Origin: Sacculina carcini
Taxonomy: Eukaryota > Arthropoda > Thecostraca > Sacculinidae
DNA: 64,000 nt
Direction of reading: 5' to 3'
NCBI GenBank assembly: GCA_916048095.2
Contig: OU696595.1
Span: 1,349,295 to 1,413,294, forward strand
The notes below the pieces were generated by a model that saw only the letters and a list, made by a program, of their open reading frames with translations, was not told the DNA's origin and searched no databases. The position numbers and the translations under genes are program-made. Below, one piece after another: positions 951 through 64,000 of this stretch (position 1 is its first letter; every line of letters begins with the position of its first letter).

Positions 951-1126
951 TGTAGTGTGTGCCTACACCGCCAGAGGGCGCGAGGGTACTAGGCGTGGGT
1001 GACGCTAACGGCCGTCAGCCAGTGTGTGTACAGCAGTGGTGGTGTGTGTGTCGTGGCCTTGTATCATTCTATTGTTGTTGTATTGTTATTGTTATTGTTG
1101 TGTTGAGTGCTATAATATATCGTACA
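951..1126 (+). repeat. 5' LTR of element 1
   Basis: 176 bp, matching 5508-5683 with a constant offset of 4557 and no difference that I could see. It starts TGTAGTGTG and ends ATATATCGTACA. The last base is also the A of the gag-pol start codon. Confidence 0.96.
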
Positions 1127-18723: not shown

Positions 18724-21700
18724 GCGTCACACTGTCCAACAGCAAAATCCAGCATGACGCCTACGTGGTGCCCCGACCAGCCACAGATTTCACGGCGTCA
18801 CTCTTGGCACAGAGGTGAGCAAGTTTGCATATTTGATTATATGTGAAGATTTCGCTTGACTACATCAAGTGTTTAAAAATAATTTATGTTGTATTACAAA
18901 CTGGAAAAAATAGCGCAGTCCAACGCGTGGTTTGTCACCGACAATTCCAGTCTCGTGCTCAAGGTGACGCATATTGCCAGACGTCCACCGCACGACATCC
19001 CGGACGACGAAATGGAGGGCTCGGCGCGGCTCAAGAACGCCGGCGATTTCACCACGTGGTTCTCCCGGAAGAACTGTTTCTTCCGTGTACTTGGCACACA
19101 GTGTTTGCCCCGGGCACTGGCTGCTGCCAGGTACATTGCGGAGAATCACGCCGCGTCGAGCGCCTTCCGAATGCGTGTGCAACGTCTGGCAAGGGACCCC
19201 GCAAGTTTCATGTCTGAGGCCAGGGAATTGTGTGAACGTTCCGGGGTAGACTTTTCCCTGCCAAGCATGGGCTTGCGGGAGCTCCAAAAGTTGGTGGCTG
19301 GTTGGTCGGAGTACCGGGTCCATGTCTACTCGACGGATCATTTTGGGCGACTCGGCGCAACCTTCGGTGAGTAATTAGAAGAAATATTCCACTAGCGTTA
19401 ATGATTTGCATTCATATAATTCAATTTGCATTAATTCGCATATGCGTGTGTTTCAGGCACAGGACATCATCATCTCTATCTGTATCATCATCATCATCAT
19501 TTCGACGTCATCACCAAGATCAAGGCATTCCTCGACACGAAATATTTCTGCGAGGAATGCCAAACGCGTTACACCCGTCCTGGGGAGCATACCTGTGCCG
19601 GAGGCTGCAATGACTGCGGAGCGCCTCATCGATGCCAGCGGGTAGGTGCGTTAATCCATTGTCCCGAATGTAGTTTTAATTTCATATCCCGCTCCTGCTT
19701 CGAGGCTCACAAACAATCACGCTGTAAGGTGCGGCGCAGGTGTCGCAGATGTGGCGATGTGCTTTACAAATCGTATAGCAAAAATCGCCATATCTGTGGC
19801 ACTCACATATGCCCTTACTGTCGTGAACGAGTCACGAACCACGAGCTCATAGATGCGGAAAATGCCCATCGTTGATTTCTCCAACCTTCGCATCCTTCTT
19901 CTGTCAACGAAAAACAAACCTATATCTTTTACGACTTTGAGTGTATGATTGACACCAGCACCAGCCTTCACATTCCTAATCATTGTCTCGCACACGTATG
20001 TTGTGAGTCCTGCTTTGATCGCATTGAACGGCCATGCACTGACTGTGGGACAGAGCAGCACGAACATGTGTTCTCTGGCCCGACGACAAGACAAGACTTT
20101 GGTCAGTGGCTTTTCACGCTCAAGGACGCGAAAGTCATTGCCCATTATGCCCAAGGTTATGACAACAACATTGTTGCCAATTACGCGTTGAGCCAAGGTG
20201 TGGTGCCAGACCTGATCATGAACGGCAGAAAAATCCTCTCCATGAAATTTATAAATTCCAAACTCCAATTCATTGATTCCTTCAGTTTCCTTCCTATGCC
20301 TCCAGCGAAATTTCCAAAACTTTCAACATTCCTGTCCGTAAAGGTTTCTTCCCTCACCTCCTCAACACTACGGACAATCAAAATTATGTAGGTCCTTTTC
20401 CTTCAGCCGATATGTTTGACCCGGGTCGCATGTCCACCGAACAGCGCGCCGAGTTTCTCACTTGGCATGCCTCGCAGGTGGGCCGGCAGTATGACCTGCG
20501 CCAGGAAATGGGAGCGTACTGCCGCGATGATGTCAATGTACTTCGTCTCGGTAGTATGCGTTTCCGCCAACAATTCATCGATGTGACTGAGGTGGACCCA
20601 TTTCAGAGCATCACGCTTCCATCTGCGTGTCATGAGGTGTGGCGTCAAAACTTTTTGCGCAAAGACAGCGTCGCGTTGATACCGAGCCATGAGCACTACC
20701 GACCATGTGGCAACTACGCGAAGAAATCGATCCAGTGGCTGGAACTGGAGGCGTCGTCTCGCGACATCAATATCCAGCACGCATTGAACTCTGGTGAGGT
20801 GCGTATTGGGTCGTACAAAGTGGACGGCTATGCCAAAGTGGGAGACCAACACCTGCTTTTCGAGTTTCTCGGTTGCTATTTTCATGGTCATCGGCATTCT
20901 GGGATGTGCTCAAACGGCGCCAGCAAAAACTGTCGCTATGTGATGAACAGTGGGGCTCCATCAACACGCCATCTATACGATGCTACCATGGCTCGTCTGG
21001 CGATACTGCGAGGCCGACCCGACACAACTCTCATCACCATCTGGGAGTGTGAATTTGATGCACTACTTCGAGACGATGACCACCAATGTTGTCGCGCCGA
21101 AGCAGTGCAAGTCTTGCCGCCGATGAATGTTCGGGACGCGTTCTACGGAGGGCGAACAGAGGTGTTTCGTCACTACGCCGAATGTGCTGGTGACGAGCGG
21201 ATCGAGTACGTCGATGTGTGCTCCTTGTATCCTTACATCCTTAAAAACGGCAAATTTCCCCTTGGTCATCCTTCTCACATTTTCCGTCCTCCCATCACAT
21301 ATTTTCACAAATATTTCGGCATCATTTATTGCACCATTCTCCCTCCACAGAATCTTAACGTTCCCGTCCTTCCCGCACGCATCAACGACCGCCTCATGTT
21401 CACTCTGTGTAGAACATGTGCCGAGCAGGGTATCGGTGGCAATTTCACCACGAGGTCGCCGCCGTGTCACCATTCGGACGAGGAGCGCAGTCTCACTTCC
21501 AGCTGGGTGTCGCTGGAAGTAGCAAAAGCTTTGGGGTTGGGATATCGGCTCACTTCCATCCACGAGTTCTGGCACTTTGCCAACACCACACAGCTCAACG
21601 ACGGCGAGGCAGGCGGATTATTTGCACAATATGTAAACAAGTTTTACGCCCTCAAGGTCGGCGCCGAGGGTTATCCCGCTCACGTGCAGACTGACGACGA

Positions 21701-22547
21701 CCGATACGACTACCGACAGACTCTCGAAGCGCGTGAGGGTATAACCCTGCCGACCATTGAGAGGAATCCTGGCCTGAGAGCTGTGGCCAAATTGTGCCTC
21801 AACAGCCAGTGGGGCAAGTTGGCTCAGCGCACAAACCTGGGGCAGACTGAATACGTCACTTCCATGCGTCGTGTGTACGATCTGCTGGAGGATCCCGTCA
21901 TGGAGGTCTCCGCGCGTGACCTCATATCGGTGGCTGACGATAGTGAGGGGTACAGCACAATGCACGATGTATGGAGGCTGACGTATTCCCATCGACAAGA
22001 CAAGACTGTGGCCGGTCCGCTTAAAACTAACATCATCCTTGCTGCTTTTGTCATGTGCCAAGCCCGACTTTATCTTTACTCTTTCCTGCAACTCCTTAAT
22101 CCTTTTCAGCTAATATACTGTGACACAGATTCAGTCATTTACAAAGCATCACCAGAAATGCCGCACATACACACATCACATTTTCTCGGCGACATGACTG
22201 ACGAACTGACTTGTTTCGGGGCAGGCAGCTATATTTCTCATATAGTCTGTCTGTCTCCCAAAAATTACGCTTTTACTGTACACACACCAGACGGGGGCAC
22301 CAAGACTATATTAAAAATGCGCGGTATCACACAAACACACGACACGCAGCAGCTTATTTCCTTGGACGCTTTCCGATCCCTGTTAGAGGCGCCTGGGTCC
22401 ACAATCAAATTCCCGTTTCGACAATTTAAAAAGACTGCAGATTTTAAGAAAATTACTGTGGGAGGGGAAAAAATTAATAGGTTAGTGTCCAGTAAACGCA
22501 GGGTCCTTCCCGATTATCGTACCTTCCCTTATGGCTTCATCGACTGA
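18645..22547 (+). pseudogene. Polinton DNA polymerase B (protein-primed type), spliced and disabled
   Basis: Exon 1 runs from the ATG at 18645 to 18814 (AG|GTGAGC donor), exon 2 from about 18900 to 19366 and exon 3 from 19457 to the stop at 22547. The second intron (19367-19456) has a clean GT donor and TTTCAG acceptor that keeps frame. The first has AA where the acceptor AG should be. Landmarks: a Cys/His-rich region after exon 2 (19500-19850), exonuclease motifs YDFEC (about 19936), HYAQGYDNN (about 20143) and YCRDD (about 20517), palm motif A DVCSLYP (about 21213), the NSQWGK block (about 21802) and YCDTDS (about 22125). Breaks are a TGA at 19873-19875 and a one-base loss near 20311-20320. 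The enzyme would copy the element's linear DNA; this copy cannot be made intact. Confidence 0.88.
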
Positions 22548-33659: not shown

Positions 33660-36610
33660 TGATTCACATTTCATTTCATTTCATTTCATTTATTGAAACA
33701 TTTATATTGCGCAATCTCTACACAATGTCTCAGATGCGCAGACAGTACAATATTTACAAGGCGGCATTGTACAGACACATACATGTACAAATATTCACAA
33801 GGGTACAAACACACACACATACATTCAGCGGAAGTGCGGATATATCACTGTCACCGACAGGTCAGCTCGCATTCTTCGGCAATCCGGCAGGTGAACATGA
33901 TGCATGGGCAAAAGGACCACACGCACATATATACAGGTATAAGCGGACAGACCGGTGGAAAAACATCGCTGACAGCCACTAATCCTTCTTCGTTTCAAAA
34001 CAGGTGTTATTCACACCATGCATGACCAAAACATCACACCAACACACCCATACACACACACAAGCATAAAACCAACCCTCACATACACACACGCACACAT
34101 ACACATACATACATACACACACACTGGTAGCACATGCACAAAGGCCAGTGACAGCGGCGATACAACGTGATAACATGTTGACGCGCGAAATTAAACGACA
34201 TTTAGAAATTTAAAGCGAAATAAATAAACATTGGTCAAAGTAAAAGCAAGACAATACACATGCATCGAATCCGACAATTTTACTATATGGAATGATAGTA
34301 ATTATTTACAACAATTGTAGCATACACATTCAAAATGATTTCATTCACAGCGAATACTCCGGCTTTATGCAGGAATTTACACGATCATAAGATTGTTGAA
34401 GCAAGTGTTTTTTCAACCTGTTCTTGAAGATATCCACAGATCGGGACGATCGTATGGAGAGTGGTAATTTGTTATATAATCTGGGAGCCATGAAACTAAA
34501 ACATCGATTATAATGGGTGTGGCGGGTGGGAAACGCTGGCTCATGAAGTAGATGCTGATGGTTTCGACGAAAATCATAATCTACAGAAACTTGTTTATAA
34601 GACAACATATTTCTTAGATAAAGCGGTGATTCATATACAAGGACAGAATGTACCATACACAGTAGGTTGTATTCAATGTCAGCCTTGACCGGTAGCCAGG
34701 CTAGTGTGATAAGATATTCCACTACAGAAGTTCGTCTAGGGACATTGAATATAAGGCGACAGGATTTATTTACAATGCTCTGAAGTTTCCGTAGAATACG
34801 GTGATTGATATTGAAGAACAAAACAGAACAATATTGCAGTCTAGATATGATAAGAGAATCTACAAGTTTTTTAGTGGCTCCAATAGTTAAATTCTTCCTT
34901 ATAAAATACACACGGCGCAGATGATAATTACAGGTTCTCACAAGTTCAGACACATGAGCCTCAAACGTTAGGCGAATATCAATTGTAACACCCAGAAGTC
35001 TGCTTTTATGTACACCATCAAAGTCATTACTAGCGGGGATTGCCAGAGCGTTTTTTGTTAAAACCATGAATTTAGTCTTTTCCTTGTTCAATTTCAGGCA
35101 TTTGGTCGCTGCCCAGGTTGTTATGTCATGCAGTATTTTGCTGACACCTGAATGAGCTTGTTGAAGATCGTCAAACTCAAAATATACAAGGATATCATCA
35201 GCGAAAATCTGGTATTGCACATTATATCTGTCGAGAACTTGTTTTATTGATAATATATACACATTATAGAGAAGGGGACCAAGAACTGAGCCCTGCGGAA
35301 CACCAGACATCAGAGGGAAACTCTGGCTCTGGGCTGCATTCACAATAACTGTTTGCGAGCGATCTTTGAGGTAATCTCGAAGAAGCGAGAGTGCACCTCC
35401 AGATATACCGCAGTTTGATAAATCTTGCAGCAATATTTCGTGGCTCACAGTATCAAAAGCCGACGAAAAATCAAGCTGCATAAGAATAACATTCTGGCCA
35501 CGTAGGAGCGCAGACAGGGAGTAATTGTATGTACACAACAACGAGGTGGCACACGAGTGATGTTTTCTGAACCCTGATTGCTGAGGTAGAAACAGATGAT
35601 TTTCTTCCAGGAAGGAAGACAACTGCTCATACATAGCCGATTCAAGGAGCTTTGATACCCATGGAATTTGCGACACAGGCCTATAATTGTTCAGACACTT
35701 CGCGTCCAGTCCAGTTCTTTTCAAAATAGGAGTAATAATTGCTTCTTTCGATGCTAAAAACTTATTATGAACAAAGCTGGTATTTACAAGATAGACAATA
35801 AACGGCACAATGAGCACTACGAACGATTTGATACGGCTATATTTAATCGGATCCAAGAGATTGACCTTCATACTAGTGTTGTTGACTAGCTGCAGACAGG
35901 AGTTGTAATCAATTGGCTGGAAACAAGTGAGGCTCTGAGAGCAGTCAGGTGTAATACTTGCATATCTTTTGTTGTCCGTAACCTGGATAGAACCATGCAA
36001 TCTAATGATTTTTTCTTGAAGAAAAATACAGAAACTATCCGGCATGTGAGCTTCATTCTCGGGATGCGCATTTGGACTGGGCCTATTACCAAGTAGATTG
36101 TTCAGTACTTTCCAGAGTGTATCCGGCTACGAATCTAAGATTTTTTTGTTGTAGTACGCCTGTTTGGTCTCAGTGATCTTATGAGTGTAGCTGGACCTAG
36201 CGCTGCAAAACTCGGCCCAGTGTTCAAGTGAACGAGAGCGGTGCCAGCGGCGTTCACATTGCCGTTTCACTCTCTTCAATTGGTTTAGTGAGCCATTAAA
36301 CCAGGGAGCAGATTCATGTAGTTTAAAATGTTTTGAGATATATGGAACACATCGATCACGAATTTCACGAATGTTTTGATAGAAGTATGTGTACAATGTA
36401 TCTATTGGGAGGAAGCAGTAGTTGATAAGGTGAAATTTTTCACAGAGTCCGTGTGTTAAATTTTCAGTGTCAATGTGGTCGTAGTCATAGAAAGATATTG
36501 TTTTTCGTATTTTCTGAGGAATAGGAATAGCTAAATTAAATCTGATGAGGCTGTGGTCCGATGAATTTCTATCAATTGGACTCACCATTACTTCACGAAT
36601 TGCGTTATTA
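33660..36610 (-). mobile_element. LINE E, 5'-truncated
   Basis: Minus-strand LINE whose 3' end is the (TGAAA)n tail at 33664-33692, preceded by a GCGCAATATAAATGT motif. The 3' UTR (to 34344) includes CA-rich runs. Coding runs from 36609 to 34345. At the 5' side a CA microsatellite (36633-36670) abuts the codons just before the endonuclease SDH motif. It is inserted between two pieces of LINE F. Confidence 0.85.
34345..36609 (-). pseudogene. LINE E ORF2: endonuclease end and reverse transcriptase
   Basis: The upper part (36609-36127) has the last APE endonuclease motif SSDHSLIRFN and the linker block APWFNGSLNQLKRVKRQC. A TAG at about 36127-36129 interrupts it, after which the same frame continues through the rest of ORF2 to 34345. 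RT landmarks: [42 protein letters not shown] (about 35200), LNKEKTKFMV. The C-terminal region ends with [20 protein letters not shown]. Only one stop damages the part after the microsatellite. CR1/L2-like by motif style. Confidence 0.88.
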
Positions 36611-39650: not shown

Positions 39651-40165
39651 TTGTAATTGTAATTTCAAATATATTGCCATCATCACCAACGAACAACAGT
39701 AACATAGCAGTGGTGAGAGACATCAATTCGTCGAGCCACAGCTCCCTGACCAATCAATATCAAATACAATTTCCACATGAAATTATGAACAGTACTGGCA
39801 AGTTTGGCAAAAATACAAAACGAAGGCAGGAATTAAACACTCATATATAGCAAGCTCATAGTTGAAAACACGGTTATACACGACAAAGAGAACAGTAACT
39901 GCAGGAAGAGTTACAAGCTCGAAACCGTACAGAGTGCTTGCTGACTTCAACGTTGCTTTTGCAAATTCAGGTAATGTTTCTTAATTTTGATTTTAAATGT
40001 AGCATATGTAGTTCTAGTGAGATCGGATTTAAGTTCAATAAGTTGGTTAAAAATTCAGGCCCATTGCAAAATATACTGTTTTTGAAAAGAGTTGTTCGAA
40101 ATCCGGGGCAACTGATATTAACAGCATTACTCCTGGTCGGACGGTTGCTATTGACAAATATAAAT

Positions 40166-41012
40166 GCTCAACAAGAGCCTTAATGGGAAGTAACCTAAGT
40201 TTTTGTAAAGAAGAAGATACATGAGAACCCGAAGGAAGATTAAATATCATAAGACAAGCATTATTAATAATAGATTGAAGTTTCCTAAGCTGGCGTTGGT
40301 TGAGAGATAGTAGAAGAGAACAGCAGTACTGAGTTTTACTAAAGATGAATGAATTAGCTAACTTAAAGGCAGCAGAGATGGTTATATATCTACGAATGGA
40401 ATAGATACGCCTAAGTTGATAGTTACAGCACCTGATGTCAGATATGTGTGGATCCAAAGAAAGACAGCTATCGAGAATGATACCAAGACTATGTACAGAG
40501 CAGGATAGAGGTATACTAAGAGAAGTAGTACTATTAGAAGATGGAAAGAGAATATACTTAGTCTTATCAGGATTAAGTTTGAGATGACGAGTGAACGCCC
40601 ATCTTTCTATATCAGATAGGATGGTACTGACTGAAGAGTGAGAAATAGACTCAGACGATAGAAGGATTTGAATGTCGTCAGCGAATATTTGGAAGGACAA
40701 ATCGTGACGACGAAGAACTTTCCCTACAGAGGCAAGATACATATTGCAGAGGAGATGGCCAAAGACAGAGCCTTGAGGTACACCACAAGTTAGTGGGCAA
40801 GCCTCACTACAAGAATCAGCAGAGGTAGAAACAAACTGAAGTCTATCAGAAAGATAAGAGCGAAAGAAAGAGAGTTCTGCCGCTAATGCCTAAATCTAAC
40901 AGAGTATCAATAAGAAGCAGGTGATTAACAGTGTCAAATGCAGCAGAGAAGTCTAGTTGTATAAGTAAAACATCACTACCAGAGAGAGTAAATTTGAGAA
41001 TAGAATCATAGA
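40166..41012 (-). pseudogene. LINE C ORF2, 3' half (split by element 3)
   Basis: Minus-strand RT codons. SFQIFADD marks the catalytic motif near 40690, followed by [14 protein letters not shown] and LGIILDSCLSLDPHISD. The other half resumes at 50100 after element 3. Frames are broken above 40742. Near-identical in sequence to the open LINE at the right edge (62.2-64 kb). Confidence 0.88.
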
Positions 41013-42353: not shown

Positions 42354-42720
42354 AATCCTGCCAAGAGATGGCGCCCGCAGTCTATTCTATGCGCTGGCGT
42401 CGCCATGGGAACGGATGATGAATCAGTGTGCGCACAGCAGTGGCCTTGAGTGCAGTGACGTTATTTCGGTTCGAGTGAGAGGTGTGTGTATTGTGTCGCA
42501 GGTGTTCATGTGTTATCGTGTTTACAACAACAACAATGTATTTTTATAGCGCTCACACAGAAACAAGCGCGAAAGAGACAACAATTAGAATCAACAGTAC
42601 ACGACATCAAGATGTGAGAAAAGAAGTAGAAAATTCACAGAAAGGAAATTTTTTTTCTCAATAATAATGGAGATAAATAAAATGAAAATAAGTAAAAACA
42701 TAAGTAATTGTAAATTAGAG

Positions 42721-45633
42721 TCATAGGGAAGCGTAAGGTGTAATAGTGCGAGAAGTGGGATCAAAAGATTTAGCAAAAAGATATTTACGAAGTGAGGAGG
42801 AAAACCTACTAAAGGATGAAGAGGAAGTGATTGAGGAAGGAAGATCATTGTAGACCCGAGGCGCATAGAAAGAAAAGGATTTTGCGGACCAAGGTGACTC
42901 GTTGATAGCGCGAGGACAGGATAAAGGACGATGAACACGAGAATTAAAGTCATTAGAAGAAACTAGAAGATCAGAAAGATAGGACGGGGAAGAGCTATTG
43001 TGCAGAATTTTATATATGAGACAACACAGCCGAAAATGAATCCTAGGAATGATGGGAAGCCAGTGGAATTGGAACAAGAATTGAGAGGTATGGCGGCAAG
43101 GTGTAGGATGGAGCACAAAACGACAGGATTGATTAATAATTTTTTGAAGGATTTTCAGGGATTTGTTGGTAAGAATGTAGTGGAGTGAGCTGCAATAATC
43201 AAGACGAGAGAGAACAAGAGACTGTATTAATTTAATAGAAGAAGGCTGGTCTAAACAGGATCGAATAGGGTATAGACTGCGTAAAATCAAACGACAGGTG
43301 CGCGAAATAGAGACAACATTGTTTGAAAAGGACAAGTTGGAATCGAAGATAGCACCCAAGTTTCGAACAGAGGAAGATACAGCGATTGGGAGTAATGGAG
43401 GAGAAATGCGCGGAGGGTGAAGGATAAGAAATTCAGACTTAGAAGTGTTGAGAATGAGGCGACGAGAGGTGGTCCAGGACGTAATATCAGAGAGAATATC
43501 ATTGAGAAGAGTGGCATGAGAGAAAGGACAAGGAATTAGGAGTTGTATATCATCGGCATAAATATGGAAAGGAATGTTGTATTTACAAAGGACAGGACAG
43601 AGAGAAGACATGTAAAGATTGAAAAGAGTAGGACCCAAGATAGAACCTTGAGGGACACCAGAAATAAGAGAAGCAGATTTTGAAACAGTTGAATTGAAGT
43701 TTACTGAAAAAGTGCGACCAGAGAGATAGGATTTGAGGAGAGACAATGCTGACGAGGATAGACCCAGAGAAGAAAGATCATTGATGAGAATGGCATGATT
43801 GACAAGATCGAAGGCTAGAGACATATCGAGAAGAACAAGGAGAACTGATTGACGATAGGAAAATTTAGATAAGATTTCATGAGTAACTGAAATAAGGACG
43901 GATTCCGTAGAGTGACAGGAGCGAAACCCAGATTGGAAAGGATGAAGGACCTGGGAAATAAGGGGAGACAACTGGGAAAAAATAGCTGATTCAAGGAGTT
44001 TTGAAGGAAAGCTGAGAAGAGATATAGGACGGTAATTAGCGCATTCAGACGGATTTAATGTAGGTTTTTTAAGGATAGGATGGACGATGGCATGTTTATC
44101 AGATAGGAATTGGCCATGAAGAAATGATGAATTAATGAGATGTAATAGATAAGGAACAAGAGAAAATATTGAAGGGGAGATAGCTCTAAAATTAATAGGA
44201 TCAGCCGGAGAGGAGGAAATTTTGAGGGAAGATATCATGGTAAGAATATCTGAAAGATGTATTTGCGAGAATGAAGTGAATTGTAGAGACACACGAGTAT
44301 GTGTAACAGGGATATTGGAAGAGGGGAGTTTAGACTGAACAGTTAGGACTTTATTAGTGAAATGAGAAGATAATTGAGAGGCAGTTAGATTAGATAAAGA
44401 GGAGTTAGATCGAGAACCAGTGAGAGAGTTTAGAGTTGTCCAAAGAGACTTAGGGGATCGGGAGAGCGAAGAGAGACGGGAGGAGAAGTAATTTTGTTTA
44501 GCTGCAGACAAGGCCGAGATATAAGAAGAGCGGGAAACAGAGAAGGAAGACCAATCAGATGGATGAGATGTACGTTTCCAGATTCGTAGAAGTGAACGTT
44601 GATGTCTTTTCAATAGACGAAGTTGAGAGTTAAACCAAGGAGGAGAAGAATTAGTTGTATTGCGCCGGATAAGTAAAGGAAACAAAGAGTCACTGATTTT
44701 AGATAAAGCAGAAGATAGGTGGGGATAGATGTCCGAAGGATTCAGGAAATAAAGCGTTTGCAAAGGTAATAAGGAATCAAGTAATAGGTAAAACTGCATC
44801 GGATCGAATTCTTTAAAGTTACGATAGGCAATCAAAGCAGGAGTATGAGGAGGCAGCGAGGCGAGACAAGGAAGAGTGGTAAGAAGAAGACTATGGTCAG
44901 ACAAAGAAAGATCGGAAGGAAAGACAGTTACATTGGAGGGGGAATTGTCGGTAGAAAGGACAGGCGATGGGAAAAGGATAAGATCTAAGGAATGACCGGA
45001 TATATGAGTAGGCGAGGAAACAGGAGAGAACAAACCATGAGAGTCTAAGATAGTTAGAAATTGAGAAGCAAGGACATTAGAGCTAGGCGAATCCACCCAA
45101 AAGTTGAAATCGCCTAGGATAATAAAGCGACTAGAGAAAGAGGATATGATGCAGTCGAGGAGAGTAGGAAATTCAGTGAAAAAAGAAGAGCAAGTGCCAG
45201 GATGATTATGGCGATAAATAATGGTGATACAGAACTTTGGAGAAGAAGGCGGTGAAAGTTGTAGAGCAAGGAATTCAAAGGATGAGAAAGAACAAAGAGA
45301 CGGAAAGGATAAGACTGAAACATGTAGAGATTTAGAGAAAATGCAGCCCACTCCACCACCGGAAGACTTGGTATTTGACCTAGATTTGTGTAGGAAGGAG
45401 TAACCTATGGGAATGTTAGAGGAGAAAGAAGGAATGTCGGAGTCAAAGAGCCAGGTTTCAACAAGACACAAAATTGCGAGAGAGTGGAGGGATAGGATAT
45501 GGCAGAGATGAGTAGTTTTATTGCGACAGGAACGAATGTTAATAAATCCAATAGGAATATTAGACCAAAGAGAGGAACTAGACAAGGAAGAGCGATTAGA
45601 GGAATGCTTAGGAGAGGATGCTTGGGAGGCTAG
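42721..45633 (-). CDS. LINE B ORF2: APE endonuclease and reverse transcriptase
   Basis: About 970 codons open from the codon after the ORF1 stop. Endonuclease landmarks: GFINIRSCRNK, CLVETWLF (catalytic Glu), ILGDFNFW and SLSDHSLL. RT landmarks: ANYRPISLLSFPSKLLES, LVLLDMSLAFDLVNH, SGVPQGSILGPTLF, IYADD (about 43560), [14 protein letters not shown], and the C-terminal [19 protein letters not shown]. There is no Met before the end of the endonuclease domain, so AUG initiation could not yield a complete enzyme. The first in-frame start-like codon is TTG at 45585. Translation through the ORF1 UGA is the simplest reading. Confidence 0.93.
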   Translation of the reverse strand, partial: LASQASSPKHSSNRSSLSSSSLWSNIPIGFINIRSCRNKTTHLCHILSLHSLAILCLVETWLFDSDIPSFSSNIPIGYSFLHKSRSNTKSSGGGVGCIFSKSLHVSVLSFPSLCSFSSFEFLALQLSPPSSPKFCITIIYRHNHPGTCSSFFTEFPTLLDCIISSFSSRFIILGDFNFWVDSPSSNVLASQFLTILDSHGLFSPVSSPTHISGHSLDLILFPSPVLSTDNSPSNVTVFPSDLSLSDHSLLLTTLPCLASLPPHTPALIAYRNFKEFDPMQFYLLLDSLLPLQTLYFLNPSDIYPHLSSALSKISDSLFPLLIRRNTTNSSPPWFNSQLRLLKRHQRSLLRIWKRTSHPSDWSSFSVSRSSYISALSAAKQNYFSSRLSSLSRSPKSLWTTLNSLTGSRSNSSLSNLTASQLSSHFTNKVLTVQSKLPSSNIPVTHTRVSLQFTSFSQIHLSDILTMISSLKISSSPADPINFRAISPSIFSLVPYLLHLINSSFLHGQFLSDKHAIVHPILKKPTLNPSECANYRPISLLSFPSKLLESAIFSQLSPLISQVLHPFQSGFRSCHSTESVLISVTHEILSKFSYRQSVLLVLLDMSLAFDLVNHAILINDLSSLGLSSSALSLLKSYLSGRTFSVNFNSTVSKSASLISGVPQGSILGPTLFNLYMSSLCPVLCKYNIPFHIYADDIQLLIPCPFSHATLLNDILSDITSWTTSRRLILNTSKSEFLILHPPRISPPLLPIAVSSSVRNLGAIFDSNLSFSNNVVSISRTCRLILRSLYPIRSCLDQPSSIKLIQSLVLSRLDYCSSLHYILTNKSLKILQKIINQSCRFVLHPTPCRHTSQFLFQFHWLPIIPRIHFRLCCLIYKILHNSSSPSYLSDLLVSSNDFNSRVHRPLSCPRAINESPWSAKSFSFYAPRVYNDLPSSITSSSSFSRFSSSLRKYLFAKSFDPTSRTITPYASL

Positions 45634-45636
45634 TCA
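45628..45636 (-). promoter_or_regulatory. Candidate stop-codon readthrough site
   Basis: On the minus strand ORF1 ends ACC-TGA-CTA-GCC. UGA followed by CUAG is an established leaky stop context used by some viral and animal genes. ORF2 continues directly in the same frame. Confidence 0.65.
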
Positions 45637-46800
45637 GGTGGAAGAAGGAGAGACGGACGGACCGGAGGACATAGTGCGGAGCCGGATAGAATTTCTTACA
45701 GCCAAGAAAGAAGGACAGGAAGAGCTGAAAGATGAATGATTATGTGGACGCAAGGACGAAGCACAATTGTTGCACCATTCAGGTGCTGAGCGGTCGGAGG
45801 ACATAGTGCGGAGCCGGATAGAATTTCTTACAGCCAAGAAAGAAGGACAGGAAGAGCTGAAAGATGAATGATTATGTGGACGCAAGGACGAAGCACAATT
45901 GTTGCACCATTCAGGTACTGAGCGGTCACAGTCACCAGACCTATGAGGGCCTGCACAATGACCACACATCACCGGACGTGTGCAGTGTGTTTCTTTGTGG
46001 CCGAGACCAGCACATCGACCACAGTGAGCTACCCAGTAACGATCGTAAACTGGGCATGAGCGCAGTTCGATGAAGAGACGGTCACCGGCATTTTTGATGA
46101 CTGAACGCACAGCTGGTGAAACAGACAAAACAGCATGTGATATATTATTACGAGGAGTGGTGAAAAATAAAAGTTTGATCTCCGAGTCAGGCACAGATGA
46201 CAGACAGTAATTTTTTTGCTTTAGTGAAGAAACGAAAGAATCAGAAGAAAAGTTGGGAGAAATGTTAGCCATAGTAATCTTCGGGCGAAGCTGCGTGGCA
46301 GTCGGCAGTGAGACTTCAGCGTCCGGCATGGCCATGCGAACACGATCAGCAGCCTTTTTGGCTGTAGCGGCGGAATCGCAGCGCAGCACCAGTCCGCCAT
46401 TGACAGCAGGGCGCGAGGCAGACACCGGAATATCGCGCAGAGCCGGAGCAACAGACGATGTCGAAATGGGCGAGCTAGTCTTCGACTTTAAAACCACAGC
46501 ATGTGACTGTTTCGGTTGAGGAGACGGTCCTGTGGTGTCCTGTGGTGGCTGACGTAGTTCATTTAGAGTGCCCTCAATGGTCTGCAGGCGCTGGCCAAAC
46601 GAAGAGAAATCTCCAGCCAACTGGATCGCGAACTTAGCTCGACCAAGACAGGGAGAACACACCCAATTGACCATCTTCAGTAGGTCCGTCCTGATACCAG
46701 TTAGAGAGGCACATTTGACGTGGGCCCGCGAATCACATAAGTTGCATCCAACCCATTTGGAAGTCTCACCGGGAGATTTACAAATACAACATTGACACAT
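45634..46800 (-). CDS. LINE B ORF1: PHD finger and zinc-knuckle protein
   Basis: 388 codons from the ATG at 46800. It starts with a PHD-type C4HC3 finger (CQCCICK, then WVGCNLCDSRAHVKC, then WVCSPC). A low-complexity Ser/Thr/Pro stretch follows. Next is an RRM-like gag segment around KITMANISPNF and LSVSPAVRSVIK, then knuckles CGRCAGLGHKETHC and CGHCAGPHRSGDC. A 135-bp tandem duplication (about 45660-45929) repeats a further Cys/His block, EWCNNCASSLRPHNHSSFSS, almost exactly. ORF1 proteins of such LINEs bind the element RNA. The stop is TGA at 45636-45634. Confidence 0.9.
   Translation of the reverse strand: MCQCCICKSPGETSKWVGCNLCDSRAHVKCASLTGIRTDLLKMVNWVCSPCLGRAKFAIQLAGDFSSFGQRLQTIEGTLNELRQPPQDTTGPSPQPKQSHAVVLKSKTSSPISTSSVAPALRDIPVSASRPAVNGGLVLRCDSAATAKKAADRVRMAMPDAEVSLPTATQLRPKITMANISPNFSSDSFVSSLKQKNYCLSSVPDSEIKLLFFTTPRNNISHAVLSVSPAVRSVIKNAGDRLFIELRSCPVYDRYWVAHCGRCAGLGHKETHCTRPVMCGHCAGPHRSGDCDRSVPEWCNNCASSLRPHNHSSFSSSCPSFLAVRNSIRLRTMSSDRSAPEWCNNCASSLRPHNHSSFSSSCPSFLAVRNSIRLRTMSSGPSVSPSST
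45660..45930. repeat. Tandem duplication within LINE B ORF1, 135-bp unit
   Basis: The two units (about 45660-45794 and 45795-45929) differ at a few bases. 135 bp equals 45 codons, so the reading frame is kept and a Cys/His motif is doubled. Confidence 0.95.
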
Positions 46801-47026
46801 TGCGCAACGTGAGAATTCAGGTGAGAAACAACCAAACAATTCCAAACAATTAAAAAACAAACTGAATACTCACCCAGCGACAAGAAGTATCAGGTAAGAA
46901 AGAACTACAGAATCATAAATTTGAGCAGCGCGCGAAAGCAACCATACACCACAACTGTCGCTGGGAGAGTGTTAATGTATTTTTGTATAGACAAGTGTTC
47001 TCGTCAATAAAGATCCAGACCAAAAC

Positions 47027-49936
47027 ATGGCGCAGCCTACATCAGCCGAAACCAGTGCGCAGCCTACATCAGCCGAAACCAGTGCGCAGCCTACATCAGC
47101 CGAAACCAGTGCGCAGCCTACATCAGCCGAAACCAGTGCGCAGCCTACATCAGAGCTGAACGAAGCGGTCAATCGATTCGCGTGGAGTGGGTAAATTGTT
47201 CCTCCAACAAAACTGGACTTATCTGTCGATCGAAGGGAGTCATTCAGCATATGGCGAGAACGCTGGAGCGATTACGTTCTGCTTTCAGGACTCAGAAGCC
47301 AAAGTCGTGCAATTCAAATGGCGGTCTTACGGTCGTGTCTAAGCGACGAATCTCTGCGAATTGTCAAAAGTCTCGACATTCCAGAGGCCGGCCGGGACAA
47401 AATCGACACAATTCTGCAACACCTGGACATCTACGCCAAAGGGCAAGTAAATGAGGTGATCGAGAGGAAAAATTTTAACTCTCGAAAACAAAACGCCGGT
47501 GAAACTTTTGATGATTTTCTCATTAGCCTGCGAGAACTGAGTACCTCGTGCAACTTCTGTGACACCTGCAAGGACAGCCTCGTTCGAGATAGAATCGTCA
47601 TGGGCATACAAGACTCGTGCACGATCAAGAAGCTGTGCAGCGTCAATAATTTGAAGCTGTCTATGGCTGTGGACATCTGTCGCGCAGAAGAAGCTGCCTG
47701 TCGTGACACCGAACGTATAGAGACCGACAGAGTCAACCGCGTACACGGCGTCGGAGGACACCGACCCAGACATCAAAGGTATGGAACCACCTCAGAGCAA
47801 CGTGAGTGCAGCCGCTGTGGGAGGCAACACACGCCTGAAAACAAATGTCCGGCACGTGATCAAGAATGCAGACGATGTGGGAAACTTGGACACTTCGCCA
47901 AGAAATGTCGCACTGCGATGGGGAAAAACAGTGACAACAGACGGAGAAACAAGTCGCCAGACGACAAACCCGTGTCAGCTGCGATAGTGTCGAGCGTCAC
48001 GTCGCTCAGGGCACCACGTGTGGACGTCGTAGTTAACGGGTGTATCACCGTTTCGGCTCTTACAGACACTGGAGCAGACATAACTGTCGCCGGTCTGGAC
48101 GTGCTCAACAAATTCGAGGACGAGAACAATCTGCTGCCAAGCACCGATCAGCCAGTGTCAGCTGACGGATTCCGCATGGAGCCAGTTGGAGTCTGCCCGA
48201 CTACAATCGCCATCGGCGGGACAGAAGTGACTGTGGACATCCACGTCATCAAAGGAGTGACTGAGTTGCTGCTCTCTTGGCACGTTTGTCGGGCTTTGAA
48301 ACTGATTCCGAGCGATTATCCTTCGCAAATGCAGACGCCGGTCGTAAGAAGCGTCGCCGAGCGCAAATCCCAACGGGAATCGCCATCGTCAGTGGACAAC
48401 CTATTCGACGAAATTCCAGACGTCTTCAGGGAGCGTCTTCTATCACGTTTCCCGACATCATCACTACAAGAGTCTGAAGACGCCGAGGAAGAGACGACCA
48501 TCGTGGCATGTGTAGCCGCTGAACCTGACATGTCAGACACCAACTTGCAGCAGGTTCGGAGTGCAAGTTCTTCCGACTCGGAAATGCAGATACTTCGAAA
48601 AGTCATCTTGGATGGTTTTCCGGATCGCAAAGGCGATGTGGACCCCATGATCCAGCCATATTGGACTGTGCGTGAACGCCTATCAGTGGAGGATGATCTT
48701 GTCTTCTACGGTCGACGACTTGTGATTCCGAAGGCGTTACGACGGGGAATCCTGAACGAGCTACACGCAAGTCATGCGGGTAAAGAGAAGACGAAACAGA
48801 GAGCTCGCCAGGTTGTGTATTGGCCAGGAGTGGACAATGACATCGACAACATGACGAAGCAATGCACGACATGCCAAAAGTACTTACCATCGCAAGCCGC
48901 CGAGACTATCAGACATCACAAACAAGCCTCTCGACCTTTTGAGTTCGTTTCCATCGACTTCTGCGAGTATGGAGGGCACAAATTCGTTGTGTTGGTCGAC
49001 CACCTCTCTGGATGGCAGTTTGTTAATGACCTGGGCTCATCTTCAGTGACGGGGAAGCTGCTCGACACATTACGAACCGTGTACTGCATGGTGGGTGTGC
49101 CGGTAACCATATACTGCGATGGAGGCACCCAGTTCACGTCAGGAGAGTTCGTCCGATTCGCTGAACGTTGGAAATTCGAACACGTGCGTTCCTCACCACA
49201 CTATCCGCAATCCAATGGGAGGGCGGAGGCAGCGATCAAGACGGCGAAAGCACTCATCAAAAAGTGCTGGAAGGCGGAAAGAGGAGGATTTGATCCTGAT
49301 GAATGGTCAAAGGGAATTATCCAACAAAGAAACACTCCAGGACCGGACGGAAGATCTCCAGCCGAGATACTCTATGGACGACCAGTGCGGGACATGATTC
49401 CTGCACATAGACGCCAGTTCTCTGCGGAATGGCAGAAATCGAGGGAGGAAGCTGAGCATACAAGGCGCGAACAACAGACAAACGTGGACGAGAGGTACGA
49501 CGGACGTGCCAAAGACCTGCCAGACCTGAGCCCGGGAAATCATGTGGCGGTGCAGTGTCATATCACAAAGGAATGGAGCAGGTACGGTGTTGTCGTCGAA
49601 AGCCTGGCGCACAGGCGCTACCTCATCAAGTTGTCGAGCGGACGTGTGGTCTCTCGAAACCGACGACACATTCGCCGCCGGTACGGCCATGTGATGAAAC
49701 GAGATCCGGAGCATCCGACACTCCAGTCGACCGACGAGGCGCCGAGTCCAGAACCGTGTTCAACGCATCCACAACTGCGGAGGTCTACCAGAGAACGAAG
49801 ACGTCCTCAAAGACTCATCGAAGTGATGCGGACGTCTAGGGGGCGTGTGCGAGTGCTAAGCTCTAGTAGCCAATCCTGCCAAGAGATGGCGCCCGCAGTC
49901 TATTCCATGCGCTGGCGTCGCCATGGGAACGGATGA
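47027..49936 (+). pseudogene. gag-protease-integrase polyprotein of element 3, RT and RNase H missing
   Basis: The ATG at 47027 spans the LTR end and the TGG primer site. Five 9-residue units of AQPTSAETS type (27-bp repeats) follow. A TAA at 47192-47194 interrupts the frame, and from 47195 it is open to 49934-49936, inside the 3' LTR. Gag ends with knuckles CSRCGRQHTPENKC and CRRCGKLGHFAKKC; the protease has LTDTGADITV. Near 48430-48440 the text goes from DEIPDVFRE straight to LSRFPTSS, the end of RNase H in relatives, so about 450 codons are lost in frame. The integrase is complete: HX3H/CX2C finger, D in SIDFCEY, D,35,E in CDGGTQF to GRAEAA. Cannot reverse-transcribe by itself. Confidence 0.92.
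47028..47040 (+). promoter_or_regulatory. Primer-binding site of element 3
   Basis: TGGCGCAGCC directly after the 5' LTR, identical to element 1 over ten bases. Confidence 0.78.
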
Positions 49937-50094
49937 TGAATCAGTGTGCGCACAGCAGTGGCCTTGATTGCAGTGACGTTATTACGGTTCGAGTGAGAGG
50001 TGTGTGTATTGTGTCGCAGGTGTTCATGTGTCATCGTGTTAATGTGTTTTTATATAGTCAAGTGTTCTCGCCAATAAAGATCCAGACCAAAACA
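49846..50094 (+). repeat. 3' LTR of element 3
   Basis: 249 bp, TGTGCGAGTG to CAAAACA, preceded by the purine tract AGGGGGCG. It carries an AATAAA signal near 50075. The ATAGA duplication follows. Confidence 0.95.
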
Positions 50095-50099
50095 ATAGA

Positions 50100-50905
50100 G
50101 AAAAATTATAGAAGTTTCTGTAGAGTGAAAGTGACGGAAGCTAGACTGCTCAGGAAGAAACAAATTGTTAGATTCAAGATATTCAGATATCCGTATGTAG
50201 GCAGCCATTTCAAGAACCTTAGACAGCCAAGGAATTCTAGAGATTGGTCGATAGTTAGAAAGCGTGTTAGCATCCAGATCATATTTCTTAAGTATAGGGA
50301 GAATACTGGCAGTTTTAGATGCAAGAAATTCCCCAAGAGTGAAAGAAGCATTGATGAAATTATATAAGAAAGGAAGGAGCACTTCAATGGAGTGAGGAAT
50401 CCTGGAAAGATCAATGGGATCGAGAGATGAAGAATGGATTTTAACATGCCTTAAAATAATTCTACAGTCAGAAAGGGTAACTAAAGTAAAAGAGTGAATA
50501 ACAGAGGAGGGTGAGGGCGGAGAGTATAATGGTAGAGCAGCAGGGAACAAGCAGCGAATCTTATCGATTTTAGACTGGAAGAAATTCATAAATATAGAAG
50601 GTAACTGATCAGAAGCAGAATCTGGGAAAACAAGACTACGGGAATCACCTAAAAGACTGTCAAAAAGCTTCCAAAGTTACCTAGAGTTAAGACATGAAGA
50701 AATTTTAGAATCATAGTAAGATTTTTTGGCGGAGTCGCAAAGAAGATGATGATAACGACGAGCAGAACAAAAAGATTGCCACGAAGAGTCAGTCTTGAGA
50801 CGACGCCATTGGCGCTTAAGACGACAAAGGGAGGTTTTTGAATTTTTAATATCAGAGTTAAACCAAGGACAGCGAGTATTAGTGGAACGGAAAACTTTAT
50901 GATGA
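50100..50905 (-). pseudogene. LINE C ORF2, 5' half
   Basis: Continuation of 40166-41012 on the other side of element 3. In translation order from 50905: a linker block with Cys/Trp codons ([11 protein letters not shown]-like), then [56 protein letters not shown] and the HSTETSIIFLY segment. The endonuclease is absent (5' truncated at about 50905). A frame change occurs near the upstream part. Confidence 0.87.
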
Positions 50906-58996: not shown

Positions 58997-61620
58997 CTCT
59001 CTCGGTGAATTCCTTGCGTCTAAAAGCGCAAGTATTCTCCCTATCCTGAAAAAAACCTAACCTTGATCCAAATTGTTTGTCTAACCATCGTCCCATCTCT
59101 AGAATTCCTTGGCTATCCAAATCTCTTGAAATGGCTGCTTATGTCCAGATTTCGGACTACCTTGAGCGCCATGATATATTTCTCCCTGAACAATCAGGCT
59201 TCCGTAGCTTTCACTCAACAGAAACCTCGCTTCTCTTCCTCTATGACTCTATTCTCAAGTCTACTCTTGCTTGTAAGGATGTTCTTCTCATTCAACTGGA
59301 CTTCTCTGCGGCTTTTGACACTGTTGATCATCCAATTCTACTCAATACTCTATCCAACCTAGGTATTTGTGGTGCTGCACTATCATTCTTCCGCTCTTCT
59401 TTCACGATCTCAGTTTGCTTGTACCACTGTGAGTGAGTCTTTCCCACTCTCATACGGTGTACCACAGGGGTCCATTCTAGGCCCTCTCCTCTTCAATATT
59501 TAGTTAACTTCCATAGGTGAAATCCTCCATCGTCATGATATCACTTTCCAAATCTTTGCGGATGACATCCAAATTATTCTCTCGTCTGATACTATTTCCC
59601 AATCTTCTGTTTCTTCTCTCTTGGATGACATTGAAACCTGGTCTTTTTCCCACCATCTCAAGCTCAATCCTGATGAGACTAAATATATCCTTTTTCGATC
59701 TTCTAGAAGTTTAAGTTCTCTATCTGGTCCTCTCTCTAAATCTGTTCGTAGCTTAGGTGTTTAACTAAATGATTCTCTTTCTTTTGAACTATACATCTCT
59801 GATATCATTAGGGTATGTAACTTTCACATTAGGCGAATCTATTCTATCCGTAGATATTTAACTGTCTCTGCTGCTTTCAAACTAGCTAATTCTTTCATTC
59901 TCAGTAGGGTACAATACTGTTGCTCGCTCTTTCTTTCTCCGAACCAGCGCCAGCTACGCAAACTCCAATCTGTTATTAGTAGGGCTGTCAAAAGTTAATA
60001 AAGTTACTTTTTCACCTAAAGGTCACTTTTTCATAAGCTACCTAAAACTGCATGAAAAAGTTGTGTACGATAATTATTAAAAAAGTTATTAGGTTACCAA
60101 AAGTTACTTTTTCATCGTTAGGTTACTTTTTTGCTTTTAAGGTTACTTTTTTATCGTCAGGTTACCTTTTGTTATTTTTCTTGTTATTAGGTAAGTTAAC
60201 CACGAAGTTTGGTGACTTTTTGCAGATAAGAGGCACAAATACGGTATATATGAGGATAAAATAGGAAAAGAGATGGAATATTAGGTCTGAAGATCAAGAA
60301 ATGTCAACATTTCTGCTGTTAGGATTTAGCAATTGATATTCATCTTGATATCCGTGCTACTTGATATTTATACGTTTTTGGGTACGCAGGAAAGTGTAAT
60401 TCCAATTTAGTAAATGTCCACGAACCGGAGGGTGTCGTGAGATGTTTGGAGCGTGATATAGTACGATGTGTGAGCTCTCTGTACCAGATACTGCACTTTA
60501 GCACTTGACAGTACGTATTTACTTTAACAGGAATTTGCAAGTGATTTTCAGGTCGTGAGATAGCGCCATTATCCCACGTTTGACATATGGGAGGACGGGG
60601 GGCATTCACACATGCAGTGTTTACGCTACTGTAGTACGTGCTATTTGATAAAAAGTCCATTGAAAAAATATAAAGAACATTATTAAGACCATTACTAAAA
60701 AATATTTACATTTGCAATTAGTGTATTTCGCATTTGTATGAGCTTTCCACTTAAAATTATATTTTGATGGTCATGCTCCTTTTTTCGATGTTAGCTAAAT
60801 TATGTTAAGTCACTTTTGGTTGTTTGTCGTAAAAATGGTACCAGATCGGAGAGGGGATGGGAAAATAGTACCAACTCGGAAAGATGATAGAAAAGAAGGA
60901 CTAGTGTATTTTCTTCCTTCAGAACTGCAAACAGAAATTGACCTTTTTTGAAGGAGGTAATTTTTAGGTTACCTTTTTATTGGTTATTAGGTTACTTTAT
61001 ATGTTCATAAACAAACATCAAACAAACCGTGTATTCCATATAGCGCACTAATCAGCAAAGGCGTGATAAACATGTGATAAAACGATACAAAAGTGATAAT
61101 AACTTTAAAACTCAGGTTATTTTTAGGTTACTTTTTCTCGAAAATAAAGTTACTTTTTTCTGATTTTTAGGTTACTTTTTTGACAGCCCTAGTTATTAGT
61201 AAAGCTTGTCGTCTAATCTACAATATCCCTGCTGGCTCTCATGTCTCTCCCTATCTAAAAAAATTGGGATTTCTTCCTATTAAGGCGCTTATTGACTACC
61301 GCATCTGTTTGATCATCCATTCCAGTCTTATTCTCCGTAAGCCCTCGTACTTATTTGAACTTCTATCCTTCAAGAAATCTGCTCGTTCACTGAGGTCAAC
61401 TGATGATTCTCGTCTCTTACTGGAACCTGCTTTTCCTTCTAGACATACTCACTATAATCGTTGTCTCTCTATCTTAGGGCCCCGTATTTACAACAAGCTC
61501 TCCCCAACACTACGTTCTATCAATCCTATCCCTGTTTTCAAAAAACACCTGAAGAAATTCTTCATGGTGAAATCGTATTATACTCTAGAGAACATTGTCT
61601 ATATTAGTGATGATTATAAG
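58997..61620 (+). pseudogene. LINE D ORF2, split by a hAT-like element
   Basis: Plus strand. [17 protein letters not shown] starts right after a TG tract; then [38 protein letters not shown], a shifted SYGVPQGSILGPLLF and IFADD (about 59560). Coding stops at 59971 and resumes at 61200 ([20 protein letters not shown], then [20 protein letters not shown]). It has several stops and shifts. It runs into the TG array at 61661. Confidence 0.85.
59980..61191. mobile_element. hAT-like non-autonomous element, 1212 bp
   Basis: Ends TAGGGCTGTCAAAA and its inverse, with a perfect 8-bp target duplication GTTATTAG (59972-59979 and 61192-61199) inside LINE D codons. The sub-terminal DNA is rich in AGGTTACTTTTT repeats on both sides. 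No transposase frame. 8-bp duplications and short ends starting with TAG/CAG are typical of hAT elements. Confidence 0.9.
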
Positions 61621-61660
61621 GTGTACATTTTCTCTCTTCTTTCTTTATCTTTCCTTTTCT

Positions 61661-61682
61661 GTGTGTGTGTGGCTGTGTGTGG

Positions 61683-61765
<83 letters not shown>

Positions 61766-62197
61766 TATGTGTGTGTTTGTATGTGTGTGTTTGTATGTGT
61801 GTGTTTGTATGTGTGTGTTTGTATGTGTGTGTTTGTATGTGTGTGTTTGTATGTGTGTGTTTGCATGTGTGTGTTTGCATGTGTGTGTTTGTATGTGTGT
61901 GTTTGTATGTGTGTGTTTGTATGTGTGTGTTTGTATGTGTGTGTTTGTATGTGTGTGTTTGTATGTGTGTGTGTTTGTATGTGTGTGTTTGTATGTGTGT
62001 GTTTGTATGTGTGTGTTTGTATATGTGTGTTTGTATATGTGTGTTTGTATATGTGTGTTTGTATGTGTGTGTTTGTATGTGTGTGTTTGTATGTGTGTGT
62101 TTGTATGTGTGTGTTTGTATGTGTGTGTTTGTATGTGTGTGTTTGTATGTGTGTGTTTGTATGTGTGTGTTTGTATGTGTGTGTTTGTGTTTGTGTT

Positions 62198-62235
<38 letters not shown>
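61661..62235. repeat. (TG)n and GTATGTGTGTGTTT array
   Basis: About 100 bp of pure TG is followed by some 35 units of 12-14 bp (TTTGTATGTGTG). It separates LINE D from the next LINE. Long open frames on both strands follow from the composition. Confidence 0.97.
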
Positions 62236-64000
62236 TCCTTGTCAGATTCTTCTGTTCTGATTAAAAATCTTACTGTTTTTCCTATTGATTCCTCCATATC
62301 TGACCATTCATTAATAGAATTTTCTGCTTCCCTCCCTATCACTTGCAAATCTCCTAAAATTATTAGTTTCTCGGATTATCGTAATGCTGATTTAGATTCT
62401 CTTTATATCAATATGTACTTGTGTTTTGCTACTGAATGTTTCGTTCATATACCGCCTGCTTCTCTCTTAGTGTATTTCAACACATCCCTTGATTCTCTTA
62501 AGTCCACCTTTATTCCTGTTAAAGTCTTCCGCTCCACTAATACTCGCTGTCCTTGGTTTAACTCTGATATTAAAAACTCTAAAATCTCCCTTCGTCGTCT
62601 TGAGCGTCAATGGCGTCGTCTCAAGACTGACTCTTCTTGGCAAACTTTCTGTTCTGCTCGTCGGCATCATCATCTTCTCTGTGATTCCGCAAAAAAATCT
62701 TACTATAATTCTAAAATCTCTTCATGTCTCCATTCTAAGAAACTTTGGAAGCTTTTTAACAGTCTTTTAGGTAATTCCCGTAGTCTCATCCTTCCTGATT
62801 TGGCATCTAACCAATTACCTTCTTTATTCATGAATTTTTTTCAGTCCAAAATCGATAAGATTCGTTGCTTGTTCCCTTCTGTTCTGACATTGTCCTCTCC
62901 GTGCTCAACCTCATCTGTTTTTCACTCTTTTGCTTTAGTAACCATCTCTGACTGTAGAGCTATTTTAAGGCATGTTAAAATTCATTCTTCATCTCTCGAC
63001 CCCATTGATCTTTCCAGGATTCCTCACTCTATTGAGCTACTTCTTCCTTTCTTATCTAACTTCATCAATGCTTCTTTCACTCATGGGCAATTTCTGGCAT
63101 GTAAAACTGCCAGTATTCTCCCTATACTTAAGAAATCTGATCTGGACGCTAACACGCTTTCTAACTATAGACCTATCTCTAGAATTCCTTGGCTGTCTAA
63201 AGTTCTTGAAATGGCTGCCTATATACAGCTATCTGACTACCTTGAGTCTGACAATTTGTTTCTTCCTGAGCAGTCTGGCTTCCGTCACTATCACTCTACA
63301 GAAACTTCTCTAATATATCTCTATGATTCTATTCTCAAATCTACTCTCTCTGGCAAGGATGTTCTACTTATACAACTAGACTTTTCTGCTGCTTTTGACA
63401 CTGTTAATCATCTGCTTCTTATTGATACTCTGTTAGACTTAGGCATTAGCGACACAGCTCTTTCTTTCTTTCGCTCTTATCTTTCTGATAGATCTCAATA
63501 CGTATCTACCTCTGCTGATTCTTGTAGTGAGGCTTTCCCACTAACTTGCGGTGTCCCTCAAGGCTCTGTCTTAGGCCCTCTCCTCTTCAATATCTATCTA
63601 ACCTCTGTAGGGAAAGTACTTCGACGTCACGATGTGTCATTTCAAATATTCGCTGATGACATTCAAATCCTTCTCTCGTCCGTGTCTATTTCTCGCTCTT
63701 CAGTCAGTTCTATTCTATCTGATATTGAAAGTTGGGCGTTCACTCGTCATCTCAAACTTAATCCTGATAAGACTAAGTATATTCTCTTTCCATCTTCTAA
63801 TAGTACTACTTCTCTTAGTATACCGCTATCCTGCTCTGTACGTAGTCTTGGTATCATTTTTGATAGCTCTCTTTCTTTTGATCCACACATCTCTGACATT
63901 ATTAGGTGCTGTAACTTTCAGCTCAGGCGTATCTATTCCATTCGTAGATATATAACTATTTCTGCTGCTTTCAAGTTAGCTAACTCATTCATCTTTAGCA
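62236..64000 (+). CDS. LINE ORF2 with open RT frame running off the window (LINE C family)
   Basis: A frame with no stop for at least 588 codons, to the last base. It starts in the TG array. Then come [15 protein letters not shown] (last endonuclease motif), [87 protein letters not shown] (about 63650) and [14 protein letters not shown]. The RT is intact as far as visible. The endonuclease N-terminal part is replaced by the microsatellite, so as an insertion it is 5'-truncated. It is the uninterrupted relative of LINE C at 40-51 kb. Confidence 0.92.

Follow-up and report, generated by a model that had tools for sequence, protein, structure and literature searches.

The locus described here raises the question of how the second open reading frame (ORF2) of a long interspersed nuclear element (LINE) is translated when it continues in the frame of the first (ORF1) behind a single stop codon. 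The element, a copy of what is called LINE family B in this work, is located on the minus strand of a 64,000 nucleotide stretch of the Sacculina carcini genome (assembly GCA_916048095.2, contig OU696595.1, positions 1,349,295 to 1,413,294), referred to below as the window. Comparison with related elements of the same genome points to ORF2 being made as an ORF1-ORF2 fusion through programmed readthrough of the UGA stop, a reading to which we assign a probability of about 0.87.

On the minus strand of the window copy the TGA (coordinates in Table 1) is followed by CTAGCC. Upstream of the TGA 411 codons are open and downstream of it 970, the TGA being the sole stop in these 1,382 codons. This bears out a preliminary description of the locus, which without naming the strand had reported that ORF1 ends in UGA and that ORF2 continues in the same frame with no further stop. 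Its statement that ORF2 has no Met before the end of the endonuclease domain also holds, the first Met codons being residues 279, 466, 604 and 675, of which the first lies beyond the endonuclease match (residues 32-247). From -64 to +312 bases around the stop all frames together hold a single AUG, at -36 and within ORF1. Use of UGA as a general sense codon was rejected, as fifteen TGG and no internal TGA are found across ORF1 and ORF2. Selenocysteine was rejected as well: between 42000 and 47100 no such Rfam match is present, the sole match up to E 1 being a sub-threshold small nucleolar RNA.

The family search covered the 264 Mb assembly with its 43 contigs. The DNA search for family B copies, in which 40 of 119 candidates were scored, listed 41 matches, and 40 stretches including the window copy (L009) were fetched; in BLASTN of the window copy against these stretches full-length alignments span about q130 to q4577. 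Twenty-two of the 39 other copies are 97-99.5% identical to the window element over about 3.3 kb, the remaining ones being shorter or 90-96% alike. The alignment runs across the junction in 37 of the 40 stretches, with TGA in 37/37 and CTAG in 36/37 (L047 has CTCG). L045 reads TGACTAG, the decayed copy L048 reads TCA CTAG and the junction is outside the coverage of L046; altogether the UGA is kept in 38 of the 39 family B copies readable at the junction. The 970-codon ORF2 is intact in 11 of 37 copies, and in seven of these the upstream frame of at least 370 codons is intact too. Since several pairs of stretches, for example L020 and L021, resemble duplicated segments, the copies are not independent cases, and as they are mostly so alike their agreement says little by itself.

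Other families were compared. A search with the N terminus of ORF2 gave further LINE families at 60-67% identity to B (best 150 of 2877 candidates). A second search, with a query piece 41% identical to B, added others (best 150 of 1871), and we grouped the matches into families according to identity in the match lists. Junctions were read in F1 (L049, L050, L058), F2 (L051, L052, L057, L059-L061), F3 (L053, L054), F4 (L055), F5 (L056), G1 (L018), G2 (L064), G4 (L065 with L068, and L070), G5 (L066) and G6 (L067, L069, L071). In the letters read, the stop is UGA and the next base C in all eleven families, B included, so the different stop codon which the preliminary description had suggested looking for in other copies was found in none of them. 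UGA CUA is present in nine of the eleven, the exceptions being G6 (UGA CUU) and G4 (UGA CAA). By comparison, only 20 of the 2526 TGAs on both strands of the window are followed by CTA, and the frequency at the junctions thus exceeds chance. The leaky context had earlier been given as CUAG; its CUA part stands, while the G is not conserved between families, following only in B and G5 among the nine, and CUAG was dropped as a conserved unit.

The shared ORF1-stop-ORF2 frame was read from the letters for B and F1-F5, and from coordinates for F5, G2, G4 and G6; for G5 the letters cover the fifteen codons ahead of the stop. In F2 the ORF1 tail is open and in frame through to the stop in four of six loci, the exceptions being L051, with a frame-breaking deletion, and L057, with a rearrangement upstream. 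G1 is a decayed copy in which the stop after an ORF1-like tail is followed by a broken ORF2 frame. In nine families, G1 being left out as frame-broken, the 33-60 codons read between the stop and the beginning of the endonuclease match contain no Met. An AUG conserved ahead of the endonuclease, which had been named as a contrary finding, is thus absent from these nine families, but G4 has one shortly past the stop.

The conservation of the stop context stands out from its surroundings. With the families anchored at the stop, pairwise identity among the eleven is 1, 1, 1, 1, 0.82 and 0.82 at the six positions of UGA CUA, while the 67 flanking positions have a mean identity of 0.33 and a maximum of 0.65. 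With G4 left out, the ten families give 1, 1, 1, 1, 1 and 0.8 for the hexamer and 0.34 for the flanks. The composition of the flanks (C 0.42, T 0.32, A 0.15, G 0.11) by itself predicts an identity of about 0.31. The hexamer, at 0.82-1 with flanks near chance, is therefore an island within a drifted linker otherwise without remaining likeness. Over the start of the endonuclease, compared in six families, 16 of 95 comparisons of conserved Leu residues show identical codons, and at four-fold sites the third base is shared in 131 of 390. Over both ORFs, in six family pairs among B, F1, F3, F4 and F5 (the G families being left out), the synonymous pS is 0.65-0.82 versus a nonsynonymous pN of 0.19-0.40, with pN below pS in all six; judged from these values, both ORFs are under purifying selection in the families tested. 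The preliminary description had proposed asking whether the stop and its context are kept while synonymous sites diverge, and this is what is seen: the hexamer is kept and the synonymous sites are saturated in the families tested. As far as such comparisons indicate, the stop context is conserved beyond neutral expectation.

The frame relation was followed across the genome by pairing, by eye, ORF1 matches (best 150 of 1859) with neighbouring endonuclease matches (from the best 150 of 2877 and of 1871). Among the matches listed, the distance is a multiple of three in 69 of 71 pairs from four families (F5 16/17, G6 14/14, G2 19/20 and G4 20/20). Another frame relation, the remaining contrary result considered earlier, is thus limited to two of the listed pairs, and the other 69 lack the ORF2 in another frame that ribosomal frameshifting would call for. 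The idea of an ORF1 in another frame for G4, combined with reinitiation, was rejected on the same count, all 20 pairs being in one frame.

The join itself was covered by junction-spanning protein queries from F5 and F3, in which the stop was written as X; stops were counted per match, without their place inside it. Among the best 150 of 1359 candidates for the F5 query, 144 start upstream of the join, and exactly one stop, TGA, is present in 129 of these, TGA with another stop in six and no stop in five. For the F3 query, 149 of the best 150 of 1702 start upstream of the join, with a single TGA in 126, TGA with another stop in 17 and only TAA or TAG in none. Read-through frames of at least 1300 codons number 77 (43 + 34) among the matches listed; 75 carry one TGA, which is their sole stop, two are stop-free, and TAA or TAG occurs in none.

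The earlier suggestion that ORF2 is made as a readthrough fusion gains support from these comparative tests, with UGA CUA as the core context. The ORF1 protein would be the main product, made by ordinary translation ending at the UGA. Less often, a near-cognate tRNA would decode the UGA, aided by the CUA 3' of it, and the ribosome would continue in frame to give an ORF1-ORF2 fusion carrying endonuclease and reverse transcriptase. The sequence itself shows that both ORFs lie in one frame with a lone UGA between them, that CUA follows and an AUG is lacking, that the hexamer is conserved between families and, in the families tested, that both ORFs are under purifying selection; the conservation would serve readthrough, and the fusion would be the source of the ORF2 protein and would set an excess of ORF1. 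Three marks of readthrough of the UGA CUA type are found here, namely CUA in nine of eleven families, a long in-phase frame under purifying selection and a conserved context.

Several observations weigh against programmed readthrough, or limit its reach. G6 has UGA CUU in all three copies read, and G4 has UGA CAA in both copies read, followed by CCC and, at codon 11 past the stop, by an in-frame AUG; lacking CUA and having this AUG, G4 may reinitiate or have switched mechanism. Among the best 150 of 1359 junction-spanning matches, four of the 144 have only TAA or TAG, all in frames of less than 1300 codons, and three further short rows start exactly at the join with no stop reported. Among the best 150 of 1702, six of the 149 have no stop, although four of these belong to a relative at 54-56% identity, start about 20 residues upstream of the join and may not span it. 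The two long stop-free ORF1-ORF2 frames, known from coordinates, are C9:631250-631645 (1380 codons) and C31:3289863-3290261 (1368 codons); since these two long copies and the three short rows show no stop, the stop has been lost in single copies. A stable fold in the 100 bases 3' of the stop, as expected of structure-dependent readthrough, was found in one of the nine families folded (F5, z -3.3), the other eight having z above -0.5; the folding left out G1 and G4 and covered local folds, with pseudoknots and distant pairings outside the test. Finally, neither families nor copies are independent trials, the families being of shared ancestry within one genome and the copies of each family near-identical.

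Among the rival explanations, ORF2 might be translated by termination-reinitiation, as in SART1 and LINE-1, or by internal entry, from an AUG or non-AUG codon past the stop. According to the passages of PMC5972666 available, reinitiation is reported for SART1 and proposed for LINE-1, which like the LINE described here have two ORFs with ORF2 translated from the same RNA, and the AUG 11 codons past the UGA of G4 would suit this route. However, SART1 and LINE-1 use an AUG overlapping the stop or past it, which is absent from the nine families readable in frame up to the endonuclease match (present in G4; G1 uncounted), and the sole AUG near the family B stop is inside ORF1. Moreover, reinitiation requires no common frame, yet nearly all listed pairs have one, and it leaves the conserved CUA unexplained. 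For these elements we consider it unlikely.

A very unlikely alternative to readthrough is that the hexamer is kept for some other reason, as a branch point (CUGAC with a pyrimidine-rich tract after it) or as a protein or RNA-binding site, ORF2 being translated from a spliced RNA. UGAC can form part of a splice branch point and the linker is rich in C and T, but the base 5' of UGAC in ten families is C, A, C, C, C, T, A, T, A and G, so the form of a branch point is not kept; the CUA past the stop would be unexplained, and the motif is placed exactly at the end of ORF1, in phase. It is also hardly credible that the UGA is a mutation or a functionless inheritance whose conservation comes only from recent copies of one master. 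The near-identity of many family B copies is what such a history would give, but the hexamer is kept in families 60-67% and, in one case, 41% alike to B at the endonuclease start, with flanks near chance and synonymous sites saturated where tested. Shared descent without selection fails for the further reason that recombination between families would have brought the flanks along.

The proposed readthrough of the LINE stop can be set beside known systems, as far as the passages available from the papers cited go. For human readthrough, regression singled out UGA CUA as the best predictor, to which a G at the following position may add (PMC4359377); neighbours on both sides of the stop shift the rate several-fold (PMC12233894), and for UGA CUA alone about 1.5-2.9% readthrough is given in other systems (PMC11166343). 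Animal genes and the ilarvirus CP-RT share with the LINE an in-frame UGA CUA and a coding frame beyond it (PMC4359377, PMC12233894, PMC11166343). CP-RT was argued from the in-frame extension, leaky contexts such as UGA CUA and the lack of a conserved AUG (PMC11166343), and these signs are the ones relied on for the LINE as well. The extensions in those cases are of host enzymes, receptors and a coat protein, whereas that of the LINE would be a polymerase of 970 residues. In murine leukaemia virus Gag-Pol an in-frame stop likewise gives one protein and a rarer polymerase fusion, but by UAG and a pseudoknot (PMC5009743), and the LINE, with UGA CUA and no local fold, is not of that family.

Within the literature on readthrough in LINEs and transposons that was covered (subscription papers and Repbase reports being outside its scope), the passages at hand suggest ORF1-ORF2 readthrough of a LINE only for non-LTR (long terminal repeat) retrotransposons of Paramecium, Group 3. 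These have ORF1 and ORF2 in one frame, like the LINE described here, but belong to a ciliate clade, and the passages contain no conserved stop context or test. As readthrough was already suggested for this group, the present case extends a known idea with strong comparative support. Related but different are constructs of human LINE-1 ORF2 in which premature stops are read through (PMC4176336, in the part available) and SIRE1, met as a cited title, and for the LTR element Tca2 the available part of PMC7175516 tells of a suppression test that failed. A term search of the accessible text of an ORF1 review (PMC4120745) gave no mention of readthrough, fused or in-frame ORFs, or the stop codon.

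By domains alone the family B element is CR1-like, with endonuclease and reverse transcriptase in ORF2 and a PHD finger in ORF1 (PF00628, E 7.7e-06, Pfam); a PHD is present in the putative ORF1 of CR1-like elements according to the passage available from PMC8392823, while the in-frame UGA CUA junction is a feature of the LINE described here. Downstream of the PHD finger ORF1 has three Cys/His clusters which by eye resemble zinc knuckles. The last of these is doubled in the window copy by the tandem duplication listed in Table 1, the 132-base unit being single in the other fetched copies whose alignment extends that far. Chains named LINE-1 ORF2 protein are among the best solved-structure matches of the ORF2 reverse transcriptase, and the 3' end of the element carries a short TTG repeat, read from the letters. 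Five relatives of ORF1 were found in the protein set, without DNA context, and viral contigs searched for relatives of the LINE gave two weak loci, which were not used.

Table 1. Coordinates of the family B LINE copy and its parts, in positions of the window.
Feature	Position	Strand	Basis
LINE copy, family B	42524..46971	minus	ends common to other genomic copies (BLASTN)
ORF1	45634..46800	minus	first Met (46800) through UGA (45636-45634)
Tandem duplication near ORF1 end, 2 x 132 bases, 131/132 identical, in frame	45664..45927	minus	BLASTN and letters
In-frame UGA, sole stop between ORF1 and ORF2	45634..45636	minus	letters
UGA CUA, conserved putative readthrough hexamer	45631..45636	minus	anchored family comparison; published consensus (PMC4359377, in the part available)
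ORF2, 970 codons plus a TGA stop of its own, sharing the ORF1 frame	42721..45633	minus	ORF reading
Endonuclease domain of ORF2, residues 32-247	44893..45540	minus	PF03372, E 3.2e-09
Reverse transcriptase domain (RVT_1) of ORF2, residues 523-761	43351..44067	minus	PF00078, E 7.1e-31

Further mobile-element sequences are found elsewhere in the window. No clear host gene was seen among its long ORFs, five of which were scanned, all with domains of mobile-element type. A 756-residue frame (20277-22544, plus strand) matches DNA polymerase type B, organellar and viral (PF03175, E 4.2e-36), and we presume that it may be part of a Maverick-like element. The domains matched by a 1496-residue frame (1009-5496, plus), reverse transcriptase, RNase H and integrase, are those of an LTR-type retroelement, and a 913-residue frame (47195-49936, plus) resembles, by eye, an LTR-type element, with zinc knuckles and stretches like protease and integrase. 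LINE-like reverse transcriptase pieces are located at 34348-36126 (minus) and 61171-63999 (plus), both matching PF00078, at 40047-40889 (minus), judged by eye, and at 50050-50676 (minus), a tblastn match. Other LINE pieces, where examined in the window and the fetched loci, are 5'-truncated or unrelated.

Translation of the second ORF of LINEs is understood for few elements, mostly as reinitiation. What appears to be new here is that, in a set of LINE families of a single genome, the UGA CUA at the ORF1-ORF2 junction has been conserved in evolution. A fixed hexamer in a drifted linker may be taken as strong evidence, at the level of sequence, for control of the polymerase via stop-codon readthrough as in some retroviruses. 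There is in our estimate an even chance that UGA CUA readthrough has been the standard route to the polymerase for a whole clade of LINEs, rather than a single family, since before the families diverged, at a selected rate, with G4 having switched to another stop context and an AUG, and with related LINEs in other organisms expected to be arranged alike; if this is true, the clade has a genuine Gag/Gag-Pol-like output. The genome offers many natural replicas of one readthrough site, with the variants CUU and CAA and lost stops, for tests of how the rate is tuned and of whether retrotransposition depends on readthrough.

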